NCBI GenBank assembly: GCA_938003955.1
Contig: CALKXE010000286.1
Coordinates: 1-35,672 of the forward strand
Source of the DNA: an uncultured Saprospiraceae bacterium
GTDB taxonomy: Bacteria; Bacteroidota; Bacteroidia; Chitinophagales; Saprospiraceae
DNA length: 35,672 nt
Reading direction: 5' to 3'
Notes under the pieces: generated by a model
The model's input: only the letters and a program-made list of their open reading frames with translations
What the model was told of the DNA's origin: nothing
The model's database searches: none
Shown here: piece after piece, positions 8,878 through 23,117 of the stretch
Position numbering within the stretch: the first letter of the stretch is position 1
How the letters are laid out: each line of letters opens with the position of its first letter
Program-made: the position numbers and the translations under genes

Positions 8878-11800
8878 TTATCGAATAACAGTTATATCTC
8901 CCGTTATTTGAATTCGTTCATCGTCGTTAAATTCTATCTCTGCCATCCAAACATACACGCCAGATACTACATATTTAGAATTATAAATCCCATCCCATCC
9001 TGAAGTTTTATCATTTGCAGAAATATTATTTTTATTCCATAGATTATTTCCCCACCTATCAAATATCTGCATATTTATTATATTCTTCACAGTTCCCTCT
9101 TTCGAAAAGAGGTAGAAAACATCATTTATTCCATCTCCATTTATAGAAATAATATTAGGTGAGTATATGTCTCTATTGGGTTCTACAAATACGGTAAGTT
9201 GATCAGAAGCAAAACATCCGTAGGTATTTACAACTTCAATAGAATAGGTCGTCGTTATAATCGGATAAACATCTTGTATCAAACAGGTTGGACAGTCAAC
9301 AGTGCCGGTAGAAGACCAATCAATGTTAGATAAACTGTCAGATGATATATTCAGAATGGGAACTAAGGATTCGCTATCACCTTGATTAATAGTCAAGTTA
9401 TCACCAAGCTCTACAGAGACAGTTGTTACACTATTTATGACAACGAAATCAGTTTGAATACATCCTTCAAAATCTTGGATTGAAATTTCATAAGTTCCTG
9501 TTCCTAAATCTTGGAAACTTACTTGTTCACCAAACGAAGAACCATTGATAGAATATAAATAAGGTGAAACACCACCTAAACCAGATATATTTATAAATCC
9601 CAAACCTTCAGAAAAACAATCTGGTTGACTTACCTCTAGCTCTATCTCTAAATCTGAGAAATAATCAGTTTGAATTACAATTAGAGAGTCACAATCATAG
9701 AGATTTGTTAATTCTTCAAATGTAATCGCTACCTCATTTAAATCACATGATTCTAAAAATATGTATGTTGTATCCTTAGGAGCTAATAATATCGTATTGA
9801 AAATAATACTATCACATCCATACTGATTTTGAAGTATATCTATATTTAAGCCCTGTAAACTAGAATCACACGTATATTCACTAATAATAGTGGAATCTTT
9901 GGAAAGTAAGATTACTTCCGTTTCAATAATGCTATCACATCCCAATTGATTTTGTAACACATCAATGAATATTCCCGATAACAATGAATCACATGTCTCT
10001 GCAGTCTGATATGTAGTGTCTTTAGGCAGTAGAATAACTTCTGTCTGAACTATACTATCGCATCCCATTTGATTCTGCAATACATCTACAAAAAAACCAG
10101 ACAATAAGGAATCACATGTCTGTTCTATATGATAGGTCGTATCTTTAGGTAGTAAAATTACTTCTGTCTCAACTATACTATCACACCCCAATTGATTCTG
10201 TAATACATCAATGAATATTCCGGACAACAATGAATCGCATGTCTCTGCAATCTGATAAGTTGTATCTTTCGATAGTAAGATCACCTCAGTCTCGACTATA
10301 CTATCACAGCCCATTTGGTTTTGTAATACATCTACAAAGAAACCAGACAACAAGGAATCGCATGTCTGTTCTATCTGGAAGGTGGTATCTTTAGAAAGTA
10401 AGATAACCTCAGTCTCTATAATACTATCACATCCCATTTGGTTTTGTAGTATATCGACAAACATACCAGACAACAAAGAATCGCAAGTTTGCTCTACAAC
10501 ATATGTGGTATCCTTAGGTAATAATATAACTTCTGTCTCTACTATACTGTCACAACCCGCTTGATTTTGCAATATATCTACAAAAGAACCAGATAACAAT
10601 GAATCGCATGTCTGTTCTATGAGAGATGTGGTATCCTTTGGTATTAAAATCACCTCAGTCTCAATTATGCTATCGCATCCCATTTCATTTTGTAACACAT
10701 CTACAAATAAACCAGACAATAGCGAATCGCACGTCTGTTCAATCTGATAAGAAGTATCATTAGGCAGTAATAACACCTCAACATGAACTATACTATCACA
10801 TCCCATTTGATTAGAAAAAGTGTCAATTACCATTCCTGTTTGAAAAGAATCGCATGTAAATTCTATTATTTGAGTTGAGTCCGCTTCGAGAAAGAAAATG
10901 GTAGTTTCAATAGTACTATCACATCCGTATTGATTAAATAAATAGTCAATTGTAGTACCCACTAAAGAACTATCACAGCTGGAAAACATAATACTCTCAT
11001 AAGTCGGTTCTATATATGAAATATAAGAAGTAACAATGCTGTCACACAAAAAGCTATTTGATAAATAATCAGTAAAAACACCAACTTCTAAAGTGTCACA
11101 AGTATTGAGATATACTTCAGTAGAATCAATTTCAAATACATCTACAAAAGCAAAAGTCTCCTCTGTACATCCGACAGCATCCGTAACTGTGACAAAGTAA
11201 AAACCAGTCATTTCAGAAATAGTGTTATTTAAAGTGATGAGACTACTTGACGAACTAAAATCTAAAGGGCCGCTCCATTCATAAAAAACGCCACCTGTAG
11301 CTTCTAAAGTAAAAGATCCGTTTTCACAGACTGGAGAATCATTAAATATCTGCACGTCTAAGTCGGAAGTGGTTAATGTCACAGAATCAATATCTACGCA
11401 AACTGGCGAAAATATAATATCATCAAGTGCAAAATCATTTCCTGGTTCTTGCGTATTTACATCCTCTATACATATTACAGCTGTAGTATTGAATCCAGAA
11501 TCCCAAAATTCAAAATAGTTAACCCATTCACAAGTATTAGATATAGCTAAATTGCCATCACCAATATCAAAGCCATTGATTTGAAACTGGATTTCAGCGG
11601 GTCCATTTGGATCTACAGAAGTGAGCCAAGCAGAAAACGCATATTCAGTATTCGGATCAACATTAATAGTTTGACACCAAACTTGTTGATCGTTTACCTC
11701 CGCACCATTTACGATTAACATATTTCCATTTCCTGTGGTGTGATCACCACAGGCTTGCCAATTTATGTGCATAGGTTGAGGATCCGTTCCAACATTATAT

Positions 11801-12177
11801 TCTCCTTCAATCAATTGATTTCCAGGAATACTTGGTGCTGTATTCACATTATAATCAGTAGTAAAGCCAACATCCCCACTGCTAAAATCTCCATTAGTAA
11901 CAAGATTAATACTGTAATCAATACTTTTTACGGTAAGGTAATAAGTTGTCGTTTCCGTTATGGTAGCGTCCGTAGTTAAAGAAAAAGGATCACTTAAACC
12001 CGTTATTGGTGACCAAGAAAAAGAAGTCGATTCACCAAGTATACTCCCCTGGAGATTAAAATTCGCGGGATTTAAACAATCGAATTGATCAGGCCCAGCA
12101 TCTACGGTTGGACATTGAGCAGATGCAAGAAAATGAGACAGAAAGAAAGCAACTAAAACAAAAGGAGTTCGAAACAT
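8878..12177 (-). CDS. T9SS type B-sorted secreted protein with twelve 41-residue repeats
   Basis: A 1099-residue extracellular protein. In order: signal peptide (1-20, ending ASAQ); a PKD-like segment (about 23-88; TVDAGPDQFDC); a region resembling a galactose-binding/jelly-roll module (about 90-260; NLVTNGDFSSG ... FALDDIIFSPVC); an Ig/PKD-like segment; twelve tandem 41-residue repeats (DNA 9628-11103); an SprB-like module (SQPDCFSEGLGFINISGLGG); and a C-terminal gliding-motility-associated / T9SS type B domain (SPNIISINGDGINDVF, FDRWGNNLW). Each repeat has the pattern TCDSLLSGxFVDVLQNQxGCDS and two Cys 18 residues apart. Likely a surface-attached or secreted adhesin-like protein; no catalytic motif was seen. 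It is transcribed alone. Similar TCD-type repeats are known in large Saprospiria proteins, but to my knowledge their function is not. Confidence 0.88.
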   Translation of the reverse strand: MFRTPFVLVAFFLSHFLASAQCPTVDAGPDQFDCLNPANFNLQGSILGESTSFSWSPITGLSDPFSLTTDATITETTTYYLTVKSIDYSINLVTNGDFSSGDVGFTTDYNVNTAPSIPGNQLIEGEYNVGTDPQPMHINWQACGDHTTGNGNMLIVNGAEVNDQQVWCQTINVDPNTEYAFSAWLTSVDPNGPAEIQFQINGFDIGDGNLAISNTCEWVNYFEFWDSGFNTTAVICIEDVNTQEPGNDFALDDIIFSPVCVDIDSVTLTTSDLDVQIFNDSPVCENGSFTLEATGGVFYEWSGPLDFSSSSSLITLNNTISEMTGFYFVTVTDAVGCTEETFAFVDVFEIDSTEVYLNTCDTLEVGVFTDYLSNSFLCDSIVTSYISYIEPTYESIMFSSCDSSLVGTTIDYLFNQYGCDSTIETTIFFLEADSTQIIEFTCDSFQTGMVIDTFSNQMGCDSIVHVEVLLLPNDTSYQIEQTCDSLLSGLFVDVLQNEMGCDSIIETEVILIPKDTTSLIEQTCDSLLSGSFVDILQNQAGCDSIVETEVILLPKDTTYVVEQTCDSLLSGMFVDILQNQMGCDSIIETEVILLSKDTTFQIEQTCDSLLSGFFVDVLQNQMGCDSIVETEVILLSKDTTYQIAETCDSLLSGIFIDVLQNQLGCDSIVETEVILLPKDTTYHIEQTCDSLLSGFFVDVLQNQMGCDSIVQTEVILLPKDTTYQTAETCDSLLSGIFIDVLQNQLGCDSIIETEVILLSKDSTIISEYTCDSSLQGLNIDILQNQYGCDSIIFNTILLAPKDTTYIFLESCDLNEVAITFEELTNLYDCDSLIVIQTDYFSDLEIELEVSQPDCFSEGLGFINISGLGGVSPYLYSINGSSFGEQVSFQDLGTGTYEISIQDFEGCIQTDFVVINSVTTVSVELGDNLTINQGDSESLVPILNISSDSLSNIDWSSTGTVDCPTCLIQDVYPIITTTYSIEVVNTYGCFASDQLTVFVEPNRDIYSPNIISINGDGINDVFYLFSKEGTVKNIINMQIFDRWGNNLWNKNNISANDKTSGWDGIYNSKYVVSGVYVWMAEIEFNDDERIQITGDITVIR
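9628..11103 (-). repeat. 12 x 123-bp in-frame tandem repeat array
   Basis: The units start (minus strand) at 11103, 10980, 10857, 10734, 10611, 10488, 10365, 10242, 10119, 9996, 9873 and 9750, exactly 123 bases apart. Units 4-10 are highly alike; units 1-3, 11 and 12 are diverged. Units 7+8 match units 9+10 better than 7 matches 8: FFVDVLQNQM/IFIDVLQNQL alternates, so a 246-bp two-unit duplication is likely. Confidence 0.9.
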
Positions 12178-14933: not shown

Positions 14934-15740
14934 TTACTTCATTTTATAGAATTTCTTTTCTCTTAAATATTCTCCTTCCTTTTTTGCTTCTGTTGAAAAC
15001 TTAGTTTTATATGATATCCTCGTTCCCTTTTTTGTGTATTGGAATACCATATAATGTAAATGTGGACCTGAAGTCCATCCAGTATTGCCGCTATAACCAA
15101 TCAAGTCACCAGCCGCAACCTTGTCTCCAATATTAACTTTCGCTCCGTCCTTCTTGAGATGAACATATTCAGCGAACGTACCATCTTCATGATATATGGT
15201 AACTAAGTTGTTATATTTTGCACAGGACTCATCTTGACAAGCTTTACTGTTCGAATCAACTACTTGATAGACAACACCACTTCTTGAGGCAGTTACTTTG
15301 TCACCAATCTCTAAACCAAAGTCAATAGCATTTTCTCCAGCGTGACTAAAAGAACCATTATAACCTTGGTATACCTGTACTTCCTCTAATTTAGAGAATG
15401 GAAGTTTATAAATATGGTCAGAATGAGGTTTCAATGTTATATCACCAATATAAAATTTACTATCCATCGCAAAAGTCATCTCTCGACTATTTGGTGAAAC
15501 TTTAGTTCCTGCAATAAGAAACTTTTTGGACTTTGCAGGCACTACAATATACCCTTCATCATTTGCTATATCTGACTCCATCCCGGTGAGCGTTAATTTA
15601 AGTTCAATGGTCATAGGAATCACCTCATTATTATCAGCATAGATATTCACACCCATCCCAACTTGTTCGTAGTATACATTTACCGATTCTTGTGCTGATA
15701 AACTGATGGTTAAGAATAAAATGGGAATAAGAAATTTCAT
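14934..15740 (-). CDS. M23 (LytM) family metallopeptidase
   Basis: A 268-residue exported protein: signal peptide (1-16, ending SLSAQ), a beta-rich N-terminal domain (about 20-125), then a LytM/M23 peptidase domain. Zinc ligands are visible as His133 and Asp140 (SHAGENAIDFG) and the HLH pair at 227-229 (SGPHLHY); YVHL at 192-195 gives the further conserved His. The zinc site is complete, so it is probably an active peptidoglycan or protein endopeptidase in the periplasm rather than a degenerate NlpD-type activator. It lies 79 bases after the acyl-CoA dehydrogenase gene on the same strand, so it could be read from the same transcript, but no functional link is obvious. Confidence 0.9.
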   Translation of the reverse strand: MKFLIPILFLTISLSAQESVNVYYEQVGMGVNIYADNNEVIPMTIELKLTLTGMESDIANDEGYIVVPAKSKKFLIAGTKVSPNSREMTFAMDSKFYIGDITLKPHSDHIYKLPFSKLEEVQVYQGYNGSFSHAGENAIDFGLEIGDKVTASRSGVVYQVVDSNSKACQDESCAKYNNLVTIYHEDGTFAEYVHLKKDGAKVNIGDKVAAGDLIGYSGNTGWTSGPHLHYMVFQYTKKGTRISYKTKFSTEAKKEGEYLREKKFYKMK

Positions 15741-15819
15741 ATAATTTTAATTTTGTTACACTTACAAATAACGTGTTTGAAATTTATAAAGAATACAAAT
15801 GAATCGTTAAAGTTATATA

Positions 15820-17031
15820 CTAATCACTCATTCTCTGTCTAATGGTGTTTCTGCCTAATTGATACATATGAACCTCATCTGGCCCATCTGCAATCCTCAC
15901 CGATCTAGCATATACCCAAAACTCGGCCAATGGAGTATCTTGACTTACTCCTAAACCGCCATGCGCTTGTATAGCTCTATCTATGACGTTACATGCCATC
16001 TGTGGCACCGCAATTTTTATCATGGCAACTAAATCTTTAGCTTCTTTTATGCCAAATCGATCTATTTTGTCAGCAGCCGAAAGCGTAAGTAATTTTGCCT
16101 GCTCAATTTCACATCTTGATTTTGCTATATCTTGTCTGATACTAGAAAACTTAGAAATCTGCCTTCCGAACGCTTCTCTTGAGTCCACTCTCGCACACAT
16201 AAGATCTAATGCTCTATCTGCTGCGCCTATTAATCTCATACAGTGGTGGATTCTTCCAGGACCTAATCTACCTTGTGCTATTGCGAATCCCTTTCCTTCT
16301 CCTACTAGAAGGTTTGTGGCAGGCACTCTCACGTTTTTCATTTCTATCTCTGCATGCCCCTCCGGTGAGTCAATATTACCAAAGGCTCTTAAAGGTCTCA
16401 CAATTCTTACGCCCTTTGCATCTGCTGGGACTATTATCATAGATTGTTGCACATGACGGTCCGCCGTTGGATCTGTCTTTCCCATTACTATATATACTTT
16501 TGTACTAGGATTCATTGCACCTGTTGACCACCATTTTCTGCCATTGATAACGTACTCGTCTCCATCTCTTACGATAGACGTTTCTATATTAGTAGCATCA
16601 GAAGAAGCGACTGCTGGTTCCGTCATCAAAAAAGAAGATCTGATCTCACCATTTAACAATGGCTTTAGCCATTTATCTTTTTGCGCCTGAGTTCCATATT
16701 TTGAAAGTACTTCCATATTCCCGGTGTCCGGGGCTGAGCAATTAAATACTTGCGAAGACCATAATACCCTTCCCATCAAAGCAGCCAATGGAGCGTACTC
16801 CAAATTCGTCAATCCAGGGCTGTCGTCACCATAGTCTTTTGGCAGAAACAAATTCCACAATCCTTCTTTCTTTGCAAGCTGTTTTAGCCCTTCTTGAGGA
16901 GGAAAGTGTTTCCAAGGATTAGCATATGTAAATTCTGTAAACTCCTTTTCTAATGGAAATATATGTTTCTGCATAAAATCATCAACTCGCTTTTGGAGGT
17001 CTATTGATTTTTGTGTGTATTCGAAATTCAT
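15820..17031 (-). CDS. ACAD10/11-type acyl-CoA dehydrogenase
   Basis: A 403-residue flavoprotein when started at the ATG at 17031 (MNFEYTQ..., the usual N-terminus); an upstream ATG at 17055 adds only eight residues. Seen: the FAD/substrate segment [17 protein letters not shown] (134-150), [15 protein letters not shown] (281-295), and [10 protein letters not shown] (354-363) followed by [10 protein letters not shown] (379-388). The last motif, with Asp where ordinary acyl-CoA dehydrogenases have the EGT glutamate, is the signature I associate with the ACAD10/ACAD11 subfamily. Those enzymes, and LvaC of the levulinate pathway, process 4-phosphoacyl-CoAs rather than simply desaturating acyl-CoA. 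A kinase gene of the matching family lies at 18021. SDR gene 17108-17884 is 76 bases upstream on the same strand. The substrate is not visible. Confidence 0.88.
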
Positions 17032-17107
17032 CCTTATTTTTTTAGTGTTGGGCATTGCATAGAAAACCTATGTAAATAGCTTTAGATCAAATAAAAGGGA
17101 ATATTGA

Positions 17108-17884
17108 CTACCCCACCAACATAAACCCTCCGTCAGAAGTATAAACTCCTCCTGTAGAGTAACTAGCTGCATCAGAAGCCAGATAAACTGCAAGTCCAGC
17201 CATCTCGTCAGGATCCGCCATTCTCCCTGAAGGCAATGCTGTTTCAAATTGAGCTAACATATCTTCGTTCTTCCATATGGATGCACTAAATTTCGTCTTT
17301 ATCAATCCTGGGCAAATAGCATTACTTCTTATTCCAGCTCTACCCCATTCTTTTGCTTGGGATTTTGTGAGCATGATAAGTGCAGCTTTACTTATACTAT
17401 ACAATCCTAATCCAAAAGAAGGTTTCAGTCCCTCTACAGATGCAATATTGATAATTGAACCACCGCCTCTAGACTTCATAGATGGATGACATAAATTAGC
17501 AAGTTGCATGCATGCTTTCACATTAACATTCATGATTTTATCAAATACCTCATCATCAGCTTCGGCTAATTTTCCAAATACAGGGTTAGTCGCAGCATTA
17601 TTTACAATGATATCTACACCTCCATATTTTGATATCGTTTGAGATACAAGGTTTTCTAATTGATCTTTCATTCCTACATTACACGCTATACCCACTGCAT
17701 CAAATCCGTCCGAAACGAATGACTTCGCAACAGAATCCACAGCTTCTTGACTTCTACTACTTACCACGACTTTTGCCCCATGCTCAGCTAATCCTCTCGC
17801 TATGCTCTCGCCTATACCTTTTGATGCGCCAGTCACAATAGCTACTTTCCCCTCTATGTTAAATCTATTTTTTATCCTATCCAC
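17108..17884 (-). CDS. short-chain dehydrogenase/reductase (NADP-type)
   Basis: A 258-residue classical SDR: TGASKGIG cofactor loop (18-25), NNAA (95-98), catalytic Ser149 and Tyr162-x3-Lys166 (LYSISKAA), and a C-terminal SDGG. The end of the second beta strand reads VVVSSRS, with Ser and Arg rather than Asp, which favours NADP(H). The NPVFGKLAEADDEVFD region resembles DHRS4-like carbonyl reductases often placed near ACAD/APH genes. In this cluster it could be the ketone reductase step (role of LvaD in the levulinate pathway); that is inference. It is first gene of the minus-strand arm, 136 bases from the divergent kinase gene. Confidence 0.88.
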   Translation of the reverse strand: MDRIKNRFNIEGKVAIVTGASKGIGESIARGLAEHGAKVVVSSRSQEAVDSVAKSFVSDGFDAVGIACNVGMKDQLENLVSQTISKYGGVDIIVNNAATNPVFGKLAEADDEVFDKIMNVNVKACMQLANLCHPSMKSRGGGSIINIASVEGLKPSFGLGLYSISKAALIMLTKSQAKEWGRAGIRSNAICPGLIKTKFSASIWKNEDMLAQFETALPSGRMADPDEMAGLAVYLASDAASYSTGGVYTSDGGFMLVG

Positions 17885-18020
17885 CTTTTATATTTTTGAA
17901 TTATTGAACTTAAAGTTAAGAAAGTATTTGGCATATCCCTCATGCATCTCAATTTGATATTTGATCTGTAAAGTATGTGGAATATTACTATATTGAGAAC
18001 GAATACAAGCGTTACTTTCT
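17885..18020. promoter_or_regulatory. divergent promoter region of the ACAD/kinase cluster
   Basis: 136 bases separate the SDR (minus) and kinase (plus) starts, so both arms must be started from here. I found no exact TAnnTTTG box and no convincing operator palindrome; no regulator gene lies in the cluster. Divergence from a shared region suggests joint control. Confidence 0.4.
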
Positions 18021-19085
18021 ATGTTAAACAGTGTAAGAAAAGGAGAAGAATTAAATAAAGCTAACTTGCTTAAGTTCTTATATGAAAATGAACTTATCAG
18101 AGATATCAATGATGAATTACTAATTAATCAATTCTCAAACGGATACTCTAATCTTACCTACTTAGTAGCGTCTAGCAATGATTCTTTTGTTCTGCGTATG
18201 CCACCTGAAGGTGCGACTAAGCGTGGCCATGATATGAGCCGAGAATTCAAGGTGTTGAGTCAATTGTCTAGTGGTTTCCCTAAAGTACCTAAGGCTTATA
18301 CTTACTGCGAAGATGAGCAAATTCTGGGGCGTCCCTTCTACATCATGGAAAAGATAGAAGGAGAGATAATTACATACAATAGAGCAAAGGAACTTAATAT
18401 ATCACCACAGAATTTTGGTAAAATATCTAACTCGTGGTTAGAAACATTTGTTGAGCTACACGCTACTGACTATAAATCTTGTGGCCTTGAAGACTTAGGA
18501 CGGCCAAATGGCTATGTTGAACGGCAGGTAAGTAATTGGGGTAAACAATATCTAAAGGCAAAGACACAGGAAGTACCCGAAGCAATCAAAGTTATGGCGT
18601 GGATGGAAACAAACCAACCCAAAACATATGACCACTGCCTTATCCACAATGACTTCAAGTATGACAATGTGGTTTTCAAAAATGAAGAGTGGGATAATAT
18701 CAATGCAGTGCTCGATTGGGAGATGTGTACACTAGGAGATCCTTTGATGGACTTGGGTACATCTATAGCATATTGGTCTATGCCATCTGATCCTCCCCCA
18801 TTATTAGAAGGTCTACCATCACCTACTATGCTCCCCGGAAACCCTAGCCGAACAGAGATAGCCGAACTCTATGCTCAGAAAAGCGGTAGAAAGATCGATA
18901 ACATGGTCTTCTATTATGTGTATGGATTATTTAAAATAGCAGTCATCGTCCAACAGATTTTCTATAGATATCAAAAGGGCTTGACGACAAATGAGAAATT
19001 CAAACACTTAGATAAGTCATCTCAATTTCTTTGTATCATGGCAATGCAGGCCATTCATAAAAATAGAATAGAAAAGCTTTTTTAG
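18021..19085 (+). CDS. APH-fold kinase of the ACAD10/11 N-terminal type
   Basis: A 354-residue phosphotransferase of the aminoglycoside-phosphotransferase fold. Motifs: SNGYSNLTYLV (39-49) for the glycine-rich loop, HNDFKYDN (209-216) with catalytic Asp211 and Asn216, and LDWEMCTLGDPLMDLG (231-246) with the metal-binding Asp232. The N-terminus (VRKGEELN) and C-terminal FYYVYGLFKIAVIVQQIFYRY are the pattern of the kinase domain fused to acyl-CoA dehydrogenase in animal ACAD10/11, and of LvaA. Known members phosphorylate the 4-hydroxyl of 4-hydroxyacyl-CoA. Here it is a separate gene, first of a three-gene plus-strand arm and divergent from the dehydrogenase arm. It is not expected to be an antibiotic-resistance gene. 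Confidence 0.88.
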   Translation: MLNSVRKGEELNKANLLKFLYENELIRDINDELLINQFSNGYSNLTYLVASSNDSFVLRMPPEGATKRGHDMSREFKVLSQLSSGFPKVPKAYTYCEDEQILGRPFYIMEKIEGEIITYNRAKELNISPQNFGKISNSWLETFVELHATDYKSCGLEDLGRPNGYVERQVSNWGKQYLKAKTQEVPEAIKVMAWMETNQPKTYDHCLIHNDFKYDNVVFKNEEWDNINAVLDWEMCTLGDPLMDLGTSIAYWSMPSDPPPLLEGLPSPTMLPGNPSRTEIAELYAQKSGRKIDNMVFYYVYGLFKIAVIVQQIFYRYQKGLTTNEKFKHLDKSSQFLCIMAMQAIHKNRIEKLF

Positions 19086-19127
19086 AGAATAATTAGTAGC
19101 GGAATAAGTAAACATAAGATCATTAGA

Positions 19128-19883
19128 ATGGAATTTAAAAACAAGGTTATAATTATTACTGGTGCGGGGTCTGGAATTGGCGCTGCATGTGCTGAATTAT
19201 TTGCATCCAAAGGAGCGACTGTTGTTGTTTCCGATATTAACTTGACTGATGCACTGTTGATCGTCGATAAGTGTAATATTCAAGATGAAAAATCAATCGC
19301 AATTAAAACTGATGTAACGGATTACAATGATGTAGAATTATTGATCTCAGAAACCATAGCTAAATATGGTAAGATTGATGTGATGGTAAACAATGCTGGT
19401 GTGATGAATAAAGTTCGCGCAAAGACAGCTGATCATACCTTTGAAGATTGGAACAATGTGATTGCAATCAATCAAACTGGTGTCTTTCATTGTCTAAAAG
19501 CTAGCCTTAGGGTTATGGAAAAACAGGGTCACGGTAATATTGTAAATATCGCTTCACTTGCTGGACTCAAAGCATCTGGATTTAATCTTGCTTACAGTGC
19601 TAGTAAATTTGCAGTGGTAGGAATGACAAAATCTGCTGCAATGGAATATGGATCAAAGAATATAAGAATCAATGCCGTATGTCCATCATATACTCAGACA
19701 CCAATGCTAGATGCAGCTGTCCTAACTCAACCAGGAATGGACGAGAAACTACTGAAATACGTACCTATGGGTAGGTTTGGAGATGTAAGTGAAATTGCAG
19801 AGGCCGTAACTTGGTTAGCATCTGACAAAACCTCTTTCATGACTGGACAAACAATAACACTTGATGGTGGATTGTCATTATAA
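19128..19883 (+). CDS. short-chain dehydrogenase/reductase (NAD-type)
   Basis: A 251-residue classical SDR: TGAGSGIG (11-18), NNAG (88-91), catalytic Ser143, Tyr156 and Lys160 (YSASK), C-terminal LDGG. The second strand ends VVVSDIN, the Asp (36) that normally selects NAD(H), unlike the SDR at 17108. It could be a 3-hydroxyacyl or secondary-alcohol dehydrogenase in the same pathway. It starts 42 bases after the kinase stop and is followed after 62 bases, including a strong palindrome, by the alkenal reductase gene. The family is certain; the substrate is inferred from context only. Confidence 0.88.
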   Translation: MEFKNKVIIITGAGSGIGAACAELFASKGATVVVSDINLTDALLIVDKCNIQDEKSIAIKTDVTDYNDVELLISETIAKYGKIDVMVNNAGVMNKVRAKTADHTFEDWNNVIAINQTGVFHCLKASLRVMEKQGHGNIVNIASLAGLKASGFNLAYSASKFAVVGMTKSAAMEYGSKNIRINAVCPSYTQTPMLDAAVLTQPGMDEKLLKYVPMGRFGDVSEIAEAVTWLASDKTSFMTGQTITLDGGLSL

Positions 19884-19898
19884 ATTAGATCATTAACA

Positions 19899-19930
19899 AG
19901 ACCTCCGAGGTTTTGAAATCTCGGAGGTCT
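19899..19930. repeat. 32-bp near-perfect palindrome between two operon genes
   Basis: AGACCTCCGAG (19899-19909) and CTCGGAGGTCT (19920-19930) form a perfect 11-bp stem around GTTTTGAAAT, whose ends can pair further. It has no T-run, so it is not a standard terminator. It may act as an mRNA-stability or partial-attenuation element, or be a copy of a dispersed palindromic repeat of the 'CCTCGGAGG' type. Confidence 0.7.
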
Positions 19931-19945
19931 CACAATAAAAATAAT

Positions 19946-20950
19946 ATGAATAAGCAACAAATACTCACAAAAAGACCATTAGGATTACCAGATCAAGAAA
20001 CTTGGAACTTAGTAGATTCAGAAATACCAGAATTAAAAGAAGGAGAAGTATTAATCCAGAATCATTTTATTTCTCTAGATCCTGCCATGAGAGGATGGAT
20101 GAATGATGCGCCGTCATATATCCCACCTGTCGCCATTGGTGATGTAATGAGAGCTGGCTCAATCGGCAAAGTCATCAAATCAAATAATCACCCTAAATAT
20201 AATGTCGGTGACGTGCTTACTGGCTGGGGAGGAGTACAACAATATAATGTTACAAATGGTGAGGGTTATTATCCAGTAGATACAAACCTTGCACCAATGC
20301 CTATGTACATAGGCACCCTAGGTATGCCTGGAATGACTGCATATTTCGGAATATTGGAAGTAGGTAAAATAAAGGAGGGCGATGTTGTATTGGTCTCTGG
20401 CGCTGCAGGAGCTGTAGGTAGTGTCGTAGGTCAAATCGCAAAAATAAAGGGATGCAAAGTAATTGGTATTGCAGGCGGAAAAGAAAAGTGTGACTACCTC
20501 GTAAATGAACTTGGTTATGATGGTGCTATCGATTATAAAAATGACAACGTAAAGGCAGGAATAAAACAACATTGTCCAAAAGGGATAGACGTTTATTTTG
20601 ATAATGTGGGAGGTGATATTCTGGATGCTGCTTTGGGCAGATTAAGAATGCATGCAAGAGTAGTAATCTGTGGTGCGATATCTCAATATAACAATACAAC
20701 TCCAATAAAAGGACCTAGTAATTACTTAAGTCTACTCGTTAAACGTGCAACAATGCAAGGTATGGTTGTTATGGATTATGCAGCAAATTATAGAGAAGCC
20801 GCACAACAAATGGGTATGTGGATGATGGAAGGTAAACTAAAGTCAAAAGAAGATATCTATGATGGAATAGAGAACTTCCATGAAACATTCGGCCGGTTAT
20901 TCTCTGGTGAGAAGAAAGGTAAATTGATTTTGAAAGTATTAGAAGAGTAA
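19946..20950 (+). CDS. NADPH-dependent alkenal/enone reductase (CurA/PTGR-like MDR family)
   Basis: A 334-residue zinc-free medium-chain reductase starting at the ATG at 19946; an in-frame ATG at 19913 lies inside the palindrome and is unlikely. Seen: LDPAMRGWM (44-52), typical of the CurA / prostaglandin reductase / 2-alkenal reductase branch; cofactor loop VSGAAGAVGS (150-159); GIAGGKEKC (174-182) where the Lys would bind the NADPH phosphate; FDNVGG; and a C-terminal FSGEKKGKLILKV. Family members reduce the C=C bond of alpha,beta-unsaturated aldehydes and ketones, including 4-hydroxynonenal in animals. It is last gene of the kinase arm, followed by a moderate terminator-like hairpin. Confidence 0.88.
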   Translation: MNKQQILTKRPLGLPDQETWNLVDSEIPELKEGEVLIQNHFISLDPAMRGWMNDAPSYIPPVAIGDVMRAGSIGKVIKSNNHPKYNVGDVLTGWGGVQQYNVTNGEGYYPVDTNLAPMPMYIGTLGMPGMTAYFGILEVGKIKEGDVVLVSGAAGAVGSVVGQIAKIKGCKVIGIAGGKEKCDYLVNELGYDGAIDYKNDNVKAGIKQHCPKGIDVYFDNVGGDILDAALGRLRMHARVVICGAISQYNNTTPIKGPSNYLSLLVKRATMQGMVVMDYAANYREAAQQMGMWMMEGKLKSKEDIYDGIENFHETFGRLFSGEKKGKLILKVLEE

Positions 20951-20957
20951 AACGTAT

Positions 20958-20993
20958 GTGCCAGGCAGCTAAATAATGTCTGGCACTTATATA
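20958..20993 (+). terminator. possible terminator after the reductase gene
   Basis: A 7-bp stem, GTGCCAG (20958-20964) with CTGGCAC (20980-20986), is followed by TTATATAAAT. The stem is good but the T-run is poor. Confidence 0.4.
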
Positions 20994-21106
20994 AATATCA
21001 GCAAACAGCTAATGTCGCTTCTAATTCATTAGAAGCCGAAAAGATACTTGCGAAGCAAAATGAAATAGATGAATACGGTTTGATCGTAGAAAGATTAACT
21101 AAAAGT

Positions 21107-21649
21107 TTAGTTGGCATCATCCAACAATAAATAATACCGTTCGATATTCCCTTCAACTTGTATTTCTAATCCTCTACTAATAACAAGCCTTGAGCATAGT
21201 GCAACCACTTCGATTTTTTCTTCGTTAGTAGTATACCAATTAGCTTTTGTTAATACTTCAATATCTTTATTAGAGCCATAATCTCTGAAAATCATAGACT
21301 TGGCATCTATTATATATTTATTGTCATTATCGACCCACGACCAACTCCATATATTACATTCTAAATCAAATCTTCCTAAGTCTATAAAACCAAACTTTTT
21401 GGTACCATATTTCGCATTGGTATAAACAATCTCTTCCTCTAAGATTTCATAAGACGTGCTAGCTGAATTTAACCACGGATAATCTTGTAACAGTTTTTCA
21501 CTCTTCTCTTTAAGGTCAGTGATCAATCCCGGTATTATTAGTCTTATTTTTTTAGGATAACTTGGTTTATCCAAATTACTATTAGTATTTCTAGAATTGC
21601 TAAGGTTTCTATAATTTCTAAATCCATCCCACCCCATTGTGTAAATCAT
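21107..21649 (-). CDS. hypothetical protein, DUF6882-like
   Basis: A 180-residue protein without signal peptide or membrane segment. The C-terminal half (FDLECNIWSWSWVDND ... EVLTKANWYTTNEEKIEVVALCSRL) looks like the DUF6882 pattern, where a WxWxW stretch is followed by an 'LT' motif and an alpha-helical region, but I cannot confirm this without a profile search. The N-terminus (GWDGFRNYRNLSNSRNTN) is low in complexity and may begin instead at the fifth codon (MGWDG). It is convergent with the reductase gene and 55 bases downstream of the DUF4369-type gene on the same strand. No function can be given. Confidence 0.6.
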   Translation of the reverse strand: MIYTMGWDGFRNYRNLSNSRNTNSNLDKPSYPKKIRLIIPGLITDLKEKSEKLLQDYPWLNSASTSYEILEEEIVYTNAKYGTKKFGFIDLGRFDLECNIWSWSWVDNDNKYIIDAKSMIFRDYGSNKDIEVLTKANWYTTNEEKIEVVALCSRLVISRGLEIQVEGNIERYYLLLDDAN

Positions 21650-21704
21650 AGAATATCAGCTTCATCGGTTAATTAAGTAAAGTTTTGTTTTAACAAGTGC
21701 TAGC

Positions 21705-23117
21705 TTACATCTTCTTAATTTCCATCCCTCGTTCCTTATCAATTCGTATAATCTCAGGCATAACATTTATCAATTCCTTAGCCGGAATATCTTTGATTAG
21801 TATATGCTTTTCTTTATCAAGTATGAAGATTTTAGGAGTAGATGGAATTGCAACAATACGTCTGTACCTTTGATATTCATCAAATGTATTTATGAATTTA
21901 TCCATGTTCTTTTTCGGAAGAGACTCAATGCATGGTTTCGTTTTCTTTCCTCCTTTTGTACAGATAGAAAGTAGAGTTACACCTTTCGATTCATATTCAT
22001 CGTAGAATTCTACAATAGCTGGCATTGACTTCGTACAATGTCCGCAATCATGAGCCCAAAATAGAACAATCGTATAGTCAGATTCTATATCCCATAATCT
22101 TACTGGAGTCTCTAGACTATCAGCCATATAGGTAGTAATATCAGGGAATTTCTCACCAATAAGTATATTTCTAAACTTATCAGCTTGGTCTTTCATCTTT
22201 GTAAGGTTTTCTTCAGAAACCCAATGCGCTCTTCCTGTTGCATAATACTTATCTATCAGATGAACATACACAGCATCATATCCCACAATTTTCAACTTAG
22301 CGTATTTATTTAAGAAATATGATAAGTAATACTTCCAAGTCTCTTCCGCAGGTTCCATTTCTTCTAGTAGATAGTCAATAGATACAATTATGCTATCCGG
22401 ATCTTGAGGTGTTAATTTTTCTAAATAATAATCTACTCGCTGGTGCAGATATGGAGACCTTAGGTTTATATGATCGCCAAGATTTACATTATCGAAATAG
22501 TGCTTTTTATAAAATCTATAGGTATTTAATTGAGCATCTTCCTCAAACTCTGGAATATCTACCTGAAAACTTGATTTTATAAACCTAGCTGAAACTGATT
22601 CTGGAATATCTGCGACTATTTCTCTTTGTTTTGCTTTTACATCTTCATCAATCTTGTTCAATTCTTCTTGAGCAGCTTCATCTTTTACTCCTGTGGTATC
22701 TGCAGCTGTGATTCTAGCTCTAATCTTATCAGCTTGTGGCCTTTTCTCAGCAATGAATTTCATGTATTTAGAAAAAGCTTCATTGTCTTTAGAGCCTTTA
22801 AATGATACGTCACTGCTTCTTTTGACATCCCAATTCATGTCAAACTCATGATCATTACCATCAAGAAAGAACTGCATGAAATTATTATCCTCAGGCAGTA
22901 AAAGGAAGTATACACCTGGCTTAAGGGTATCTGCCCCCTCATATTCAAACTTGCCATCTTTACCAATTAATGTATCCTTTACCACTTGCTTATCTGCATA
23001 GTAATTTCCGACAATAACAGTATCTCCTTCGTAATTCTTTAATTGGAAATCGATTTCGTATTGACCTATTGCCGAAAAGCTAATAAATGCGAAGAGTAAA
23101 GTATATAATGATTTCAT
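21705..23117 (-). CDS. secreted DUF4369 / thioredoxin-fold protein
   Basis: A 470-residue exported protein: signal peptide (1-18, ending SAIG), a DUF4369-like beta domain (about 20-105; YEGDTVIVGNYYADKQVVKDT), a long charged helical region resembling DUF5106 (about 110-315), and a C-terminal TlpA/redoxin-type thioredoxin fold with FWAHDCGHCTKSMP, giving the CxxC at 358 and 361. VAIPSTPKIFILD carries the cis-Pro segment. Such proteins are common in Bacteroidota and probably act as periplasmic thiol-disulfide oxidoreductases; the physiological partner is unknown. It appears to be transcribed alone or with the gene at 21107. The ATG at 23117 gives a standard signal peptide. Confidence 0.85.
   Translation of the reverse strand: MKSLYTLLFAFISFSAIGQYEIDFQLKNYEGDTVIVGNYYADKQVVKDTLIGKDGKFEYEGADTLKPGVYFLLLPEDNNFMQFFLDGNDHEFDMNWDVKRSSDVSFKGSKDNEAFSKYMKFIAEKRPQADKIRARITAADTTGVKDEAAQEELNKIDEDVKAKQREIVADIPESVSARFIKSSFQVDIPEFEEDAQLNTYRFYKKHYFDNVNLGDHINLRSPYLHQRVDYYLEKLTPQDPDSIIVSIDYLLEEMEPAEETWKYYLSYFLNKYAKLKIVGYDAVYVHLIDKYYATGRAHWVSEENLTKMKDQADKFRNILIGEKFPDITTYMADSLETPVRLWDIESDYTIVLFWAHDCGHCTKSMPAIVEFYDEYESKGVTLLSICTKGGKKTKPCIESLPKKNMDKFINTFDEYQRYRRIVAIPSTPKIFILDKEKHILIKDIPAKELINVMPEIIRIDKERGMEIKKM

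Follow-up and report, generated by a model that had tools for sequence, protein, structure and literature searches.

Animal ACAD10 and ACAD11 consist of a kinase fused to a phosphate-eliminating acyl-CoA dehydrogenase (ACAD). Kinases of this kind yield a 4-phosphoacyl-CoA from which the dehydrogenase eliminates phosphate to leave a 2-enoyl-CoA, and bacterial orthologues of the two enzymes substitute for the ACAD10 domains in vitro (PMC11342911). ACAD11 is an animal peroxisomal protein (PMC12440821), and yeast from which an ACAD11-like gene has been deleted does not grow on ricinoleate (PMC5922974), a fatty acid that by our own arithmetic becomes 4-hydroxydecanoyl-CoA after four rounds of beta-oxidation. 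The lva operon of Pseudomonas combines a kinase, an ACAD and a short-chain dehydrogenase/reductase (SDR) in the same logic, with LvaD reducing the 4-oxoacyl-CoA levulinyl-CoA (PMC6692424). Here we analyze a five-gene cluster of this general type in a 35,672-nucleotide stretch of DNA (contig CALKXE010000286.1; hereafter the window) from an uncultured Saprospiraceae bacterium. The cluster is probably a Bacteroidota route that would bring 4-hydroxyacyl-CoAs, and as we propose also 4-oxoacyl-CoAs, into beta-oxidation. Both this type of reaction and bacterial orthologues for it were known before; what is new, as far as listings of open-access literature show, is a partner of the DHRS4 type that nearly always accompanies the kinase in the phylum.

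A preliminary description of this DNA had placed five genes around a 136-base divergent region, and the open reading frames, motifs and Pfam scan agree that five intact genes flank it:

15820..17055, minus strand: ACAD11-clade acyl-CoA dehydrogenase, predicted to be of the phosphate-eliminating type; 411 amino acids; Pfam Acyl-CoA_dh N/M/1
17108..17884, minus strand: SDR1, DHRS4-type SDR; 258 amino acids, GTG start; SSR after strand beta-2 (NADPH-type) and catalytic motif YSISK
17885..18020, no strand: divergent intergenic region from the SDR1 start to the kinase start; 136 bases
18021..19085, plus strand: APH-fold kinase, proposed 4-hydroxyacyl-CoA kinase; 354 amino acids; HNDFKYDN and LDWEMCTLGDP; Pfam APH, 155 bits
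19128..19883, plus strand: SDR2, NAD-type SDR of a generic family; 251 amino acids; acidic residue after strand beta-2 (VVVSDINL); best PDB match 5x8h
19946..20950, plus strand: CurA/PTGR-like NADPH double-bond reductase; Pfam ADH_N_2 and ADH_zinc_N; best PDB match 4b7c

For the last gene, the open reading frame listing has the start at a TTG (19913); there is an ATG at 19946, and the searches used 19949–20950. The cluster is not a chance arrangement, because its kinase and dehydrogenase match ACAD11 structures (5.9e-47 and 4e-130, respectively) and the five-gene set recurs elsewhere.

By tree placement, the window dehydrogenase belongs to the ACAD11 clade, which bears out its earlier assignment to the ACAD10/11 type. 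Its best solved structures are ACAD11 (8v3u, 4e-130; 2wbi, 6e-126), followed by the related 4hr3 (1e-119), and the next class starts at 5e-40. The ACAD, kinase and SDR trees used here come from quick searches with SH-aLRT support only, and long branches were flagged in all three. Within the ACAD tree (81 rows), the window protein lies in a 25-row clade composed mostly of ADGPDEVH proteins (SH-aLRT 100) and in a 15-row set that holds both ACAD11 chains, 2wbi and 8v3u (97); a second type, which we call type B (xIYDGPDEVH), is the sister group of this ADG-type clade, here called type A. The catalytic Asp is D390 of ADGPDEVH, at the position where chain 8v3v has Asn in place of Asp, and the phosphate Arg is R263 (mouse R626; numbering mapped in this analysis); both residues are present in all 24 ADG-type rows, three of which are reference chains. 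The HCMR motif is kept as well (H271-C272-M273-R274). In enzymes of the ACAD10/11 type, the phosphate Arg and HCMR are described as phosphate stabilizing and essential (PMC12440821).

The best structures for the kinase are 9o56 (1e-79), ACAD11 (6e-47) and 3dxp (3e-46), and it carries H209-N-D211...N216 and D232 of LDWE. In a tree of 59 rows, the ACAD11 kinase groups with 3dxp and two proteobacterial kinases (L199 and L216) in a clade with support of 99. The window kinase is thus a member of the ACAD10/11 kinases in the wider sense, as a sister lineage to the ACAD11 kinase that may work alike, so that, on the tree placements of both proteins, the dehydrogenase of the cluster is from the ACAD11 clade and its kinase from a sister clade. 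Of the earlier label, an ACAD10/11-Lva kinase, the family assignment stands, and membership in the ACAD11-kinase clade and closeness to LvaA do not. Unlike in animals, the two activities are encoded by separate genes. No kinase-ACAD fusion was proved among the kinase open reading frames of the loci looked at (the longest ones were checked), and the split state is therefore the usual one in bacteria and nothing special. One candidate for a fusion, the 1,012-amino-acid kinase frame of locus L123, was rejected: it matches kinases only, and read-through seems to account for its N-terminal part. The window genome also holds a second APH domain (L002, C164:6380-7057), outside the cluster and within a 1,011-amino-acid open frame, perhaps a multi-domain protein.

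Although the reaction logic is identical, a true levulinate operon of Bacteroidota is largely refuted as far as membership goes, and we consider it very improbable. The window kinase and its LvaA-like counterpart in locus L208 share 27% identity, and the LvaA-like kinases sit far from the window kinase in the tree, on a long branch. Likewise, the LvaC-like proteins of Pseudomonas operons fall outside the clade of the window ACAD, and SDR1 lies outside the lineage of the SDR of locus L207. The window genome has no match to DUF6285, the LvaB-type family, in a search that was positive in 2 of 14 control genomes, which agrees with the earlier remark that an LvaB-like protein is missing, and there is no synthetase among the cluster genes. 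This comparison used L207 and L208 as stand-ins for the operon, not KT2440 sequences, and equated LvaB with DUF6285 from gene order and size there.

The distribution of these genes across the phylum ties them together. We searched 395 genomes, two of which (G064 and G158) carry the same family code as the window genome, at E <= 1e-40 for the kinase, 1e-80 for the ACAD and both 1e-65 and 1e-48 for SDR1, scoring up to six SDR1, five PTGR and four ACAD candidates per genome. The kinase and the ACAD each occur in 27 genomes, and these are the identical 27. SDR1 is present in 23 genomes at the stricter cut-off and 24 at the looser one; 23 of the 24 carry the kinase (1.6 expected), as do 16 of 16 SDR1 genera (1.7 expected). 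The corresponding hypergeometric P values are tiny and ignore shared ancestry. The sole SDR1 genome without the kinase, G155, belongs to a genus that does have it. SDR1 and the kinase are no more than 8 kb apart in 14 of 23 genomes. The PTGR gene, which served as a control, occurs in 35 of the 395 genomes, of which 10 also have the kinase (2.4 expected), so that the association with the kinase is much closer for SDR1 than for PTGR. The reading of the pair as a 4-hydroxyacyl-CoA kinase and a phosphate-eliminating dehydrogenase is well supported, because the ACAD clade and its motifs, the kinase family and the identical 27-genome distribution all point to it.

SDR1 itself groups with the DHRS4 enzymes. 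A PDB search with SDR1 returned 163 sequences at E <= 1e-30, of which the top three, the DHRS4 proteins of pig, human and worm, scored from 1.6e-60 to 4.2e-53, and the fourth, TsaC, 4.2e-43. In an SDR tree of 99 rows, drawn mostly from SDRs found near kinases with few unlinked relatives sampled, a 44-row clade (98) unites SDR1 and its relatives with the three animal DHRS4 proteins, which nest together with most Bacteroidota SDR1 rows (94). SDRs with Ser-Arg after strand beta-2 use NADPH, and those with Asp at this position use NAD. Forty of 41 bacterial rows of the SDR1 clade have SR there, with AAR in the remaining one; the window SDR1 shares SSR with pig and human DHRS4, and the worm protein has GSR. 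On this motif, and by analogy with LvaD, we propose for SDR1 the role of an NADPH-dependent 4-oxoacyl-CoA reductase that would feed the kinase.

Alternatively, both SDRs could be ordinary downstream 3-hydroxyacyl-CoA dehydrogenases or reductases, with SDR1 linked merely as another beta-oxidation enzyme. Flavobacterial-type clusters do carry further genes of that kind (enoyl-CoA hydratase, MaoC, FabG and FadE-type), and plant IBR1 has been described as a predicted dehydrogenase (PMC8133310). The linkage of SDR1 to the kinase (23 of 24 against 10 of 35 for the PTGR control), the presence in the cluster of another SDR that is already of the NAD type and an SDR1 cofactor motif that points towards reduction make this doubtful in our view. 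The preliminary description had likewise left both SDRs generic; the DHRS4 affinity of SDR1 and the way it follows the kinase set it apart.

Gene neighborhoods show the same association at closer range, as the preliminary description had anticipated in expecting the linkage to be conserved. The kinase loci counted here come from the best 80 of 574 confirmed stretches and lean towards close relatives; counts refer to the 50 with at least 6 kb on both sides, the 30 with shorter flanks having been dropped, and two loci (L073 and L078) come from genomes already among the co-occurrence matches. An ACAD accompanies the kinase in 37 of the 50 (15 of type A and 22 of type B), SDR1 lies within 6 kb in 28 and any SDR is present in 34; two loci have neither ACAD nor SDR nor phosphatase. 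The window's divergent gene order is repeated in another uncultured Saprospiraceae (L063), and four loci (L031–L034) have the same five genes on one strand at 52–72% identity, together with a conserved gene of about 600 amino acids. We had considered this neighbor as an acyl-CoA synthetase, which is ruled out by the L031 copy, a FadE-type dehydrogenase with PF12806. The fullest form of the cluster, in L064, L071 and L077, comprises FadE, SDR1, ACAD, kinase, SDR2, enoyl-CoA hydratase, PTGR, quinone-oxidoreductase, FabG and MaoC. In flavobacterial-type clusters, a family of proteins of 124–132 amino acids is encoded between the kinase and SDR2 (L059, 11995–12381; L067, 11047–11421; L057, 11838–12236); the idea that these are LvaB analogues was dropped, as the three copies have no Pfam match and the Pseudomonas counterpart is DUF6285.

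Plasmids offer a view beyond the phylum. Of 11 plasmid kinase loci opened, 10 are annotated; all 10 have an acyl-CoA dehydrogenase near the kinase, 9 have an SDR there and 6 a histidine phosphatase (Pseudoalteromonas, Deinococcus, Ideonella, Azospirillum, a Rhodobacteraceae and Streptomyces); the SDRs belong partly to other lineages in the SDR tree. A test independent of the kinase started from pig DHRS4, which matched 40 plasmid records at 1e-40; we opened 18, selected for organism diversity, and read 5 without usable annotation by open reading frame search. Nine of the 18 loci have a kinase, an ADGPDEV-type ACAD or both within about 5 kb (Bosea, Haematobacter, two Sulfitobacter, Rhodococcus koreensis, Azoarcus, Tsukamurella, Sphingobium and Croceicoccus). 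On the Bosea, Azoarcus and Sphingobium plasmids, all three proteobacterial, an ACAD11-type ACAD, a kinase nearest 3dxp and a DHRS4-type SDR are all adjacent, with best matches of 46–51% for the kinase to 3dxp, 56–57% for the ACAD to ACAD11 or the window ACAD and 42–45% for the SDR to SDR1. These proteins, typed by best match rather than placed in trees, are likely the bacterial counterparts of animal peroxisomal ACAD11 and DHRS4.

Taken together, these data suggest the following pathway. SDR1 would use NADPH to reduce a 4-oxoacyl-CoA to the 4-hydroxyacyl-CoA accepted by the kinase, which, by homology, would phosphorylate the 4-hydroxyl with ATP. The ACAD, for which homology is strong, would then expel the phosphate to give a 2-enoyl-CoA with no net oxidation. 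SDR2, as an NAD-type enzyme, could act as the 3-hydroxyacyl-CoA dehydrogenase that follows, or could oxidize an unwanted 4-hydroxy epimer to the 4-oxo compound for SDR1, and the CurA/PTGR enzyme could be an optional reductase through which conjugated carbonyls enter. Fatty acids with a hydroxyl or carbonyl group on an even carbon are the likely inputs; beta-oxidation would shorten them until that group reaches C4. A synthetase, a thiolase and a FadE relative would be supplied from elsewhere in the genome. As the preliminary description had noted, the cluster has no acyl-CoA synthetase or thiolase gene; the window genome (an assembly of 5.24 Mb in 304 contigs, 94.4% complete) has five AMP-binding and four thiolase places above cut-off elsewhere, and a FadE relative (58%) on another contig.

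Several observations weigh against this pathway or against the place of SDR1 in it. The window kinase falls outside the ACAD11-kinase clade, in a large HND...GDPL group, and Ser101 of the window ACAD stands where ACAD10/11 enzymes have a proline (Pro463 of human ACAD11, numbering mapped here) that is described as highly conserved in them (PMC11342911); only 10 of the 24 ADG-type rows have Pro at this position, and 3 of those 10 are reference chains. The substrate and direction of SDR1 rest on the cofactor motif and the LvaD analogy, and the LvaD stand-in, the SDR of L207, belongs to a different SDR lineage. Four of the 27 kinase genomes (G049, G088, G186 and G312) have no SDR1 at the cut-off, with a different SDR beside the kinase in all four (L037, L040, L044 and L042), and 22 of the 50 full-flank loci have no SDR1 within 6 kb. 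Nine of 23 genomes do not have SDR1 and the kinase within 8 kb of each other, and in one of these (G388) SDR1 is beside the ACAD. For nine of the 18 plasmid loci found with DHRS4 (two Cupriavidus, Methylobacterium, R. opacus, Mesorhizobium, Indioceanicola, Moraxella, Halobellus and Rhizobium), the examined stretch holds neither the kinase nor the ACAD. Finally, SDR1 matches 205 plasmid records, 101 of them from Rhizobium and most not opened, and many of these may lack the kinase.

SDR2 admits a different division of labor. All 13 SDR2-like rows have Asp at the cofactor position, and this split of NADPH-type and NAD-type motifs between the two SDR groups is what one would expect if they formed an inversion pair, in which SDR2 with NAD+ oxidizes the S-4-hydroxyacyl-CoA and SDR1 reduces the 4-oxo product to an R isomer preferred by the kinase. 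The ACAD10 kinase gives about fourfold more product with the R form (PMC11342911). For the window kinase such a preference is only predicted, and SDR2 occurs in just 13 of the 50 full-flank loci, so we regard a pair of this kind as unlikely.

The reductase shares family and best structures with CurA and the prostaglandin reductases and scores 383.4 bits against the CurA model (NF058644), below its curated cut-off of 440 bits. The preliminary description had given it the first step, the removal of a double bond from alkenals. In the corresponding scheme, a detoxification of 4-hydroxyalkenals from lipid peroxidation, PTGR would saturate the C=C bond before oxidation, CoA ligation, phosphorylation and elimination. 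Its gene follows SDR2 and recurs in relatives that include L031–L034, L058, L059, L063, L064, L068, L071, L072 and L077, and it is enriched among kinase genomes (10 of 35, where 2.4 were expected). However, the remaining 25 of these 35 PTGR genomes have no kinase, and just 9 of the 50 full-flank loci have PTGR; moreover, no aldehyde dehydrogenase was found among the eight proteins scanned in 14934–23117, the rest of the genome not having been searched for one. The link between reductase and kinase is thus loose and the alkenal step optional at best; detoxification as the purpose of the cluster is improbable, and the part specific to 4-hydroxynonenal is not supported, because just 10 of the 35 PTGR genomes have the kinase.

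Phosphatases form a further recurrent theme. A histidine phosphatase occurs in 18 of the 50 full-flank kinase loci. Its gene lies near the kinase in L057, L070, L080, L081, L085, L096, L106, L109 and L128 (Pfam-checked in L057, L080 and L085 only) and in plasmid loci L201, L202, L210, L212, L214, L215 and L227, several phyla overall. One levulinate cluster with a histidine phosphatase is already in print (PMC6692424). In the lva-like cluster of Pseudomonas locus L207 (7077–12698), a DUF6285 gene and a histidine phosphatase both stand between kinase and dehydrogenase, and the two are therefore not mutually exclusive. On a Tsukamurella plasmid (L228, 7618–8223), a HAD-family phosphatase clusters with a DHRS4-like SDR, a kinase and an acyl-CoA dehydrogenase. 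ACAD10 has a HAD domain (PMC11342911), of which the L228 protein is a possible free-standing counterpart, and the combination of kinase and phosphatase in one module suggests a brake parallel to that domain. In this respect the window differs from ACAD10/ACAD11, since none of the eight scanned proteins is a HAD or a histidine phosphatase. We do not count a histidine phosphatase among the components of the window system: it is not in the cluster, and a single-protein search of the window genome with the L057 phosphatase, made without a positive control, gave no match.

The same eight proteins include no regulator. Promoter-like sites are not enriched over 15500–21300 (16 found, 21.3 expected), and one weak site lies inside the divergent region. 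Elsewhere in the window, 8878–12177 (minus strand) encodes a predicted 1,099-amino-acid protein that repeats, many times and almost identically, a unit of about 35 residues around TCDSLLSG.FVD.LQNQ.GCDSI, two Cys per repeat; the C-terminal end of the protein, read by eye and not scanned, resembles a secretion sorting domain.

Plant IBR3 resembles ACAD11 and has a kinase domain, and the bacterial linkage of SDR1, ACAD and kinase fits, by analogy, the plant pair IBR1/IBR3. IBR1 (plant SDRa) groups with DHRS4 in a published tree, and its mechanism is there called unknown; DHRS4 is peroxisomal and is described as acting on retinol and retinal, steroids and aromatic carbonyls (PMC10288848). IBR1 and IBR3 are needed for responses to indole-butyric acid and are apparently dispensable for general fatty acid use (PMC8133310, PMC6616111). 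Indole-butyric acid has no oxygen at C4, and the plant substrate thus remains a puzzle. We found no published link between DHRS4 and ACAD10/11 in listings of open-access literature. A tentative extension, possible though short of probable, is that the DHRS4/IBR1 family serves the ACAD10/11 pathway as its dedicated redox partner, both in bacteria and in peroxisomes, making the kinase substrate from 4-oxoacyl-CoA or correcting its stereochemistry.

If this is true, the peroxisomes of animals (ACAD11 and DHRS4) and plants (IBR3 and IBR1) keep members of a bacterial gene set, DHRS4 would gain a natural substrate, and the IBR1/IBR3 steps would act on a 4-oxygenated acyl-CoA instead of belonging to standard beta-oxidation. 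The natural substrate of DHRS4 is not settled, and a bacterial relative found without the kinase in just 1 of 24 genomes of the phylum gives DHRS4 a specific, testable reaction and possibly a general clue to both it and plant IBR1. The bacterial gene set hints, too, at a 4-oxo branch of the pathway, the mammalian enzymes of which became known in 2024–2025 (PMC11342911, PMC12440821). Within the Bacteroidota, the cluster singles out possible users of hydroxy and oxo fatty acids.

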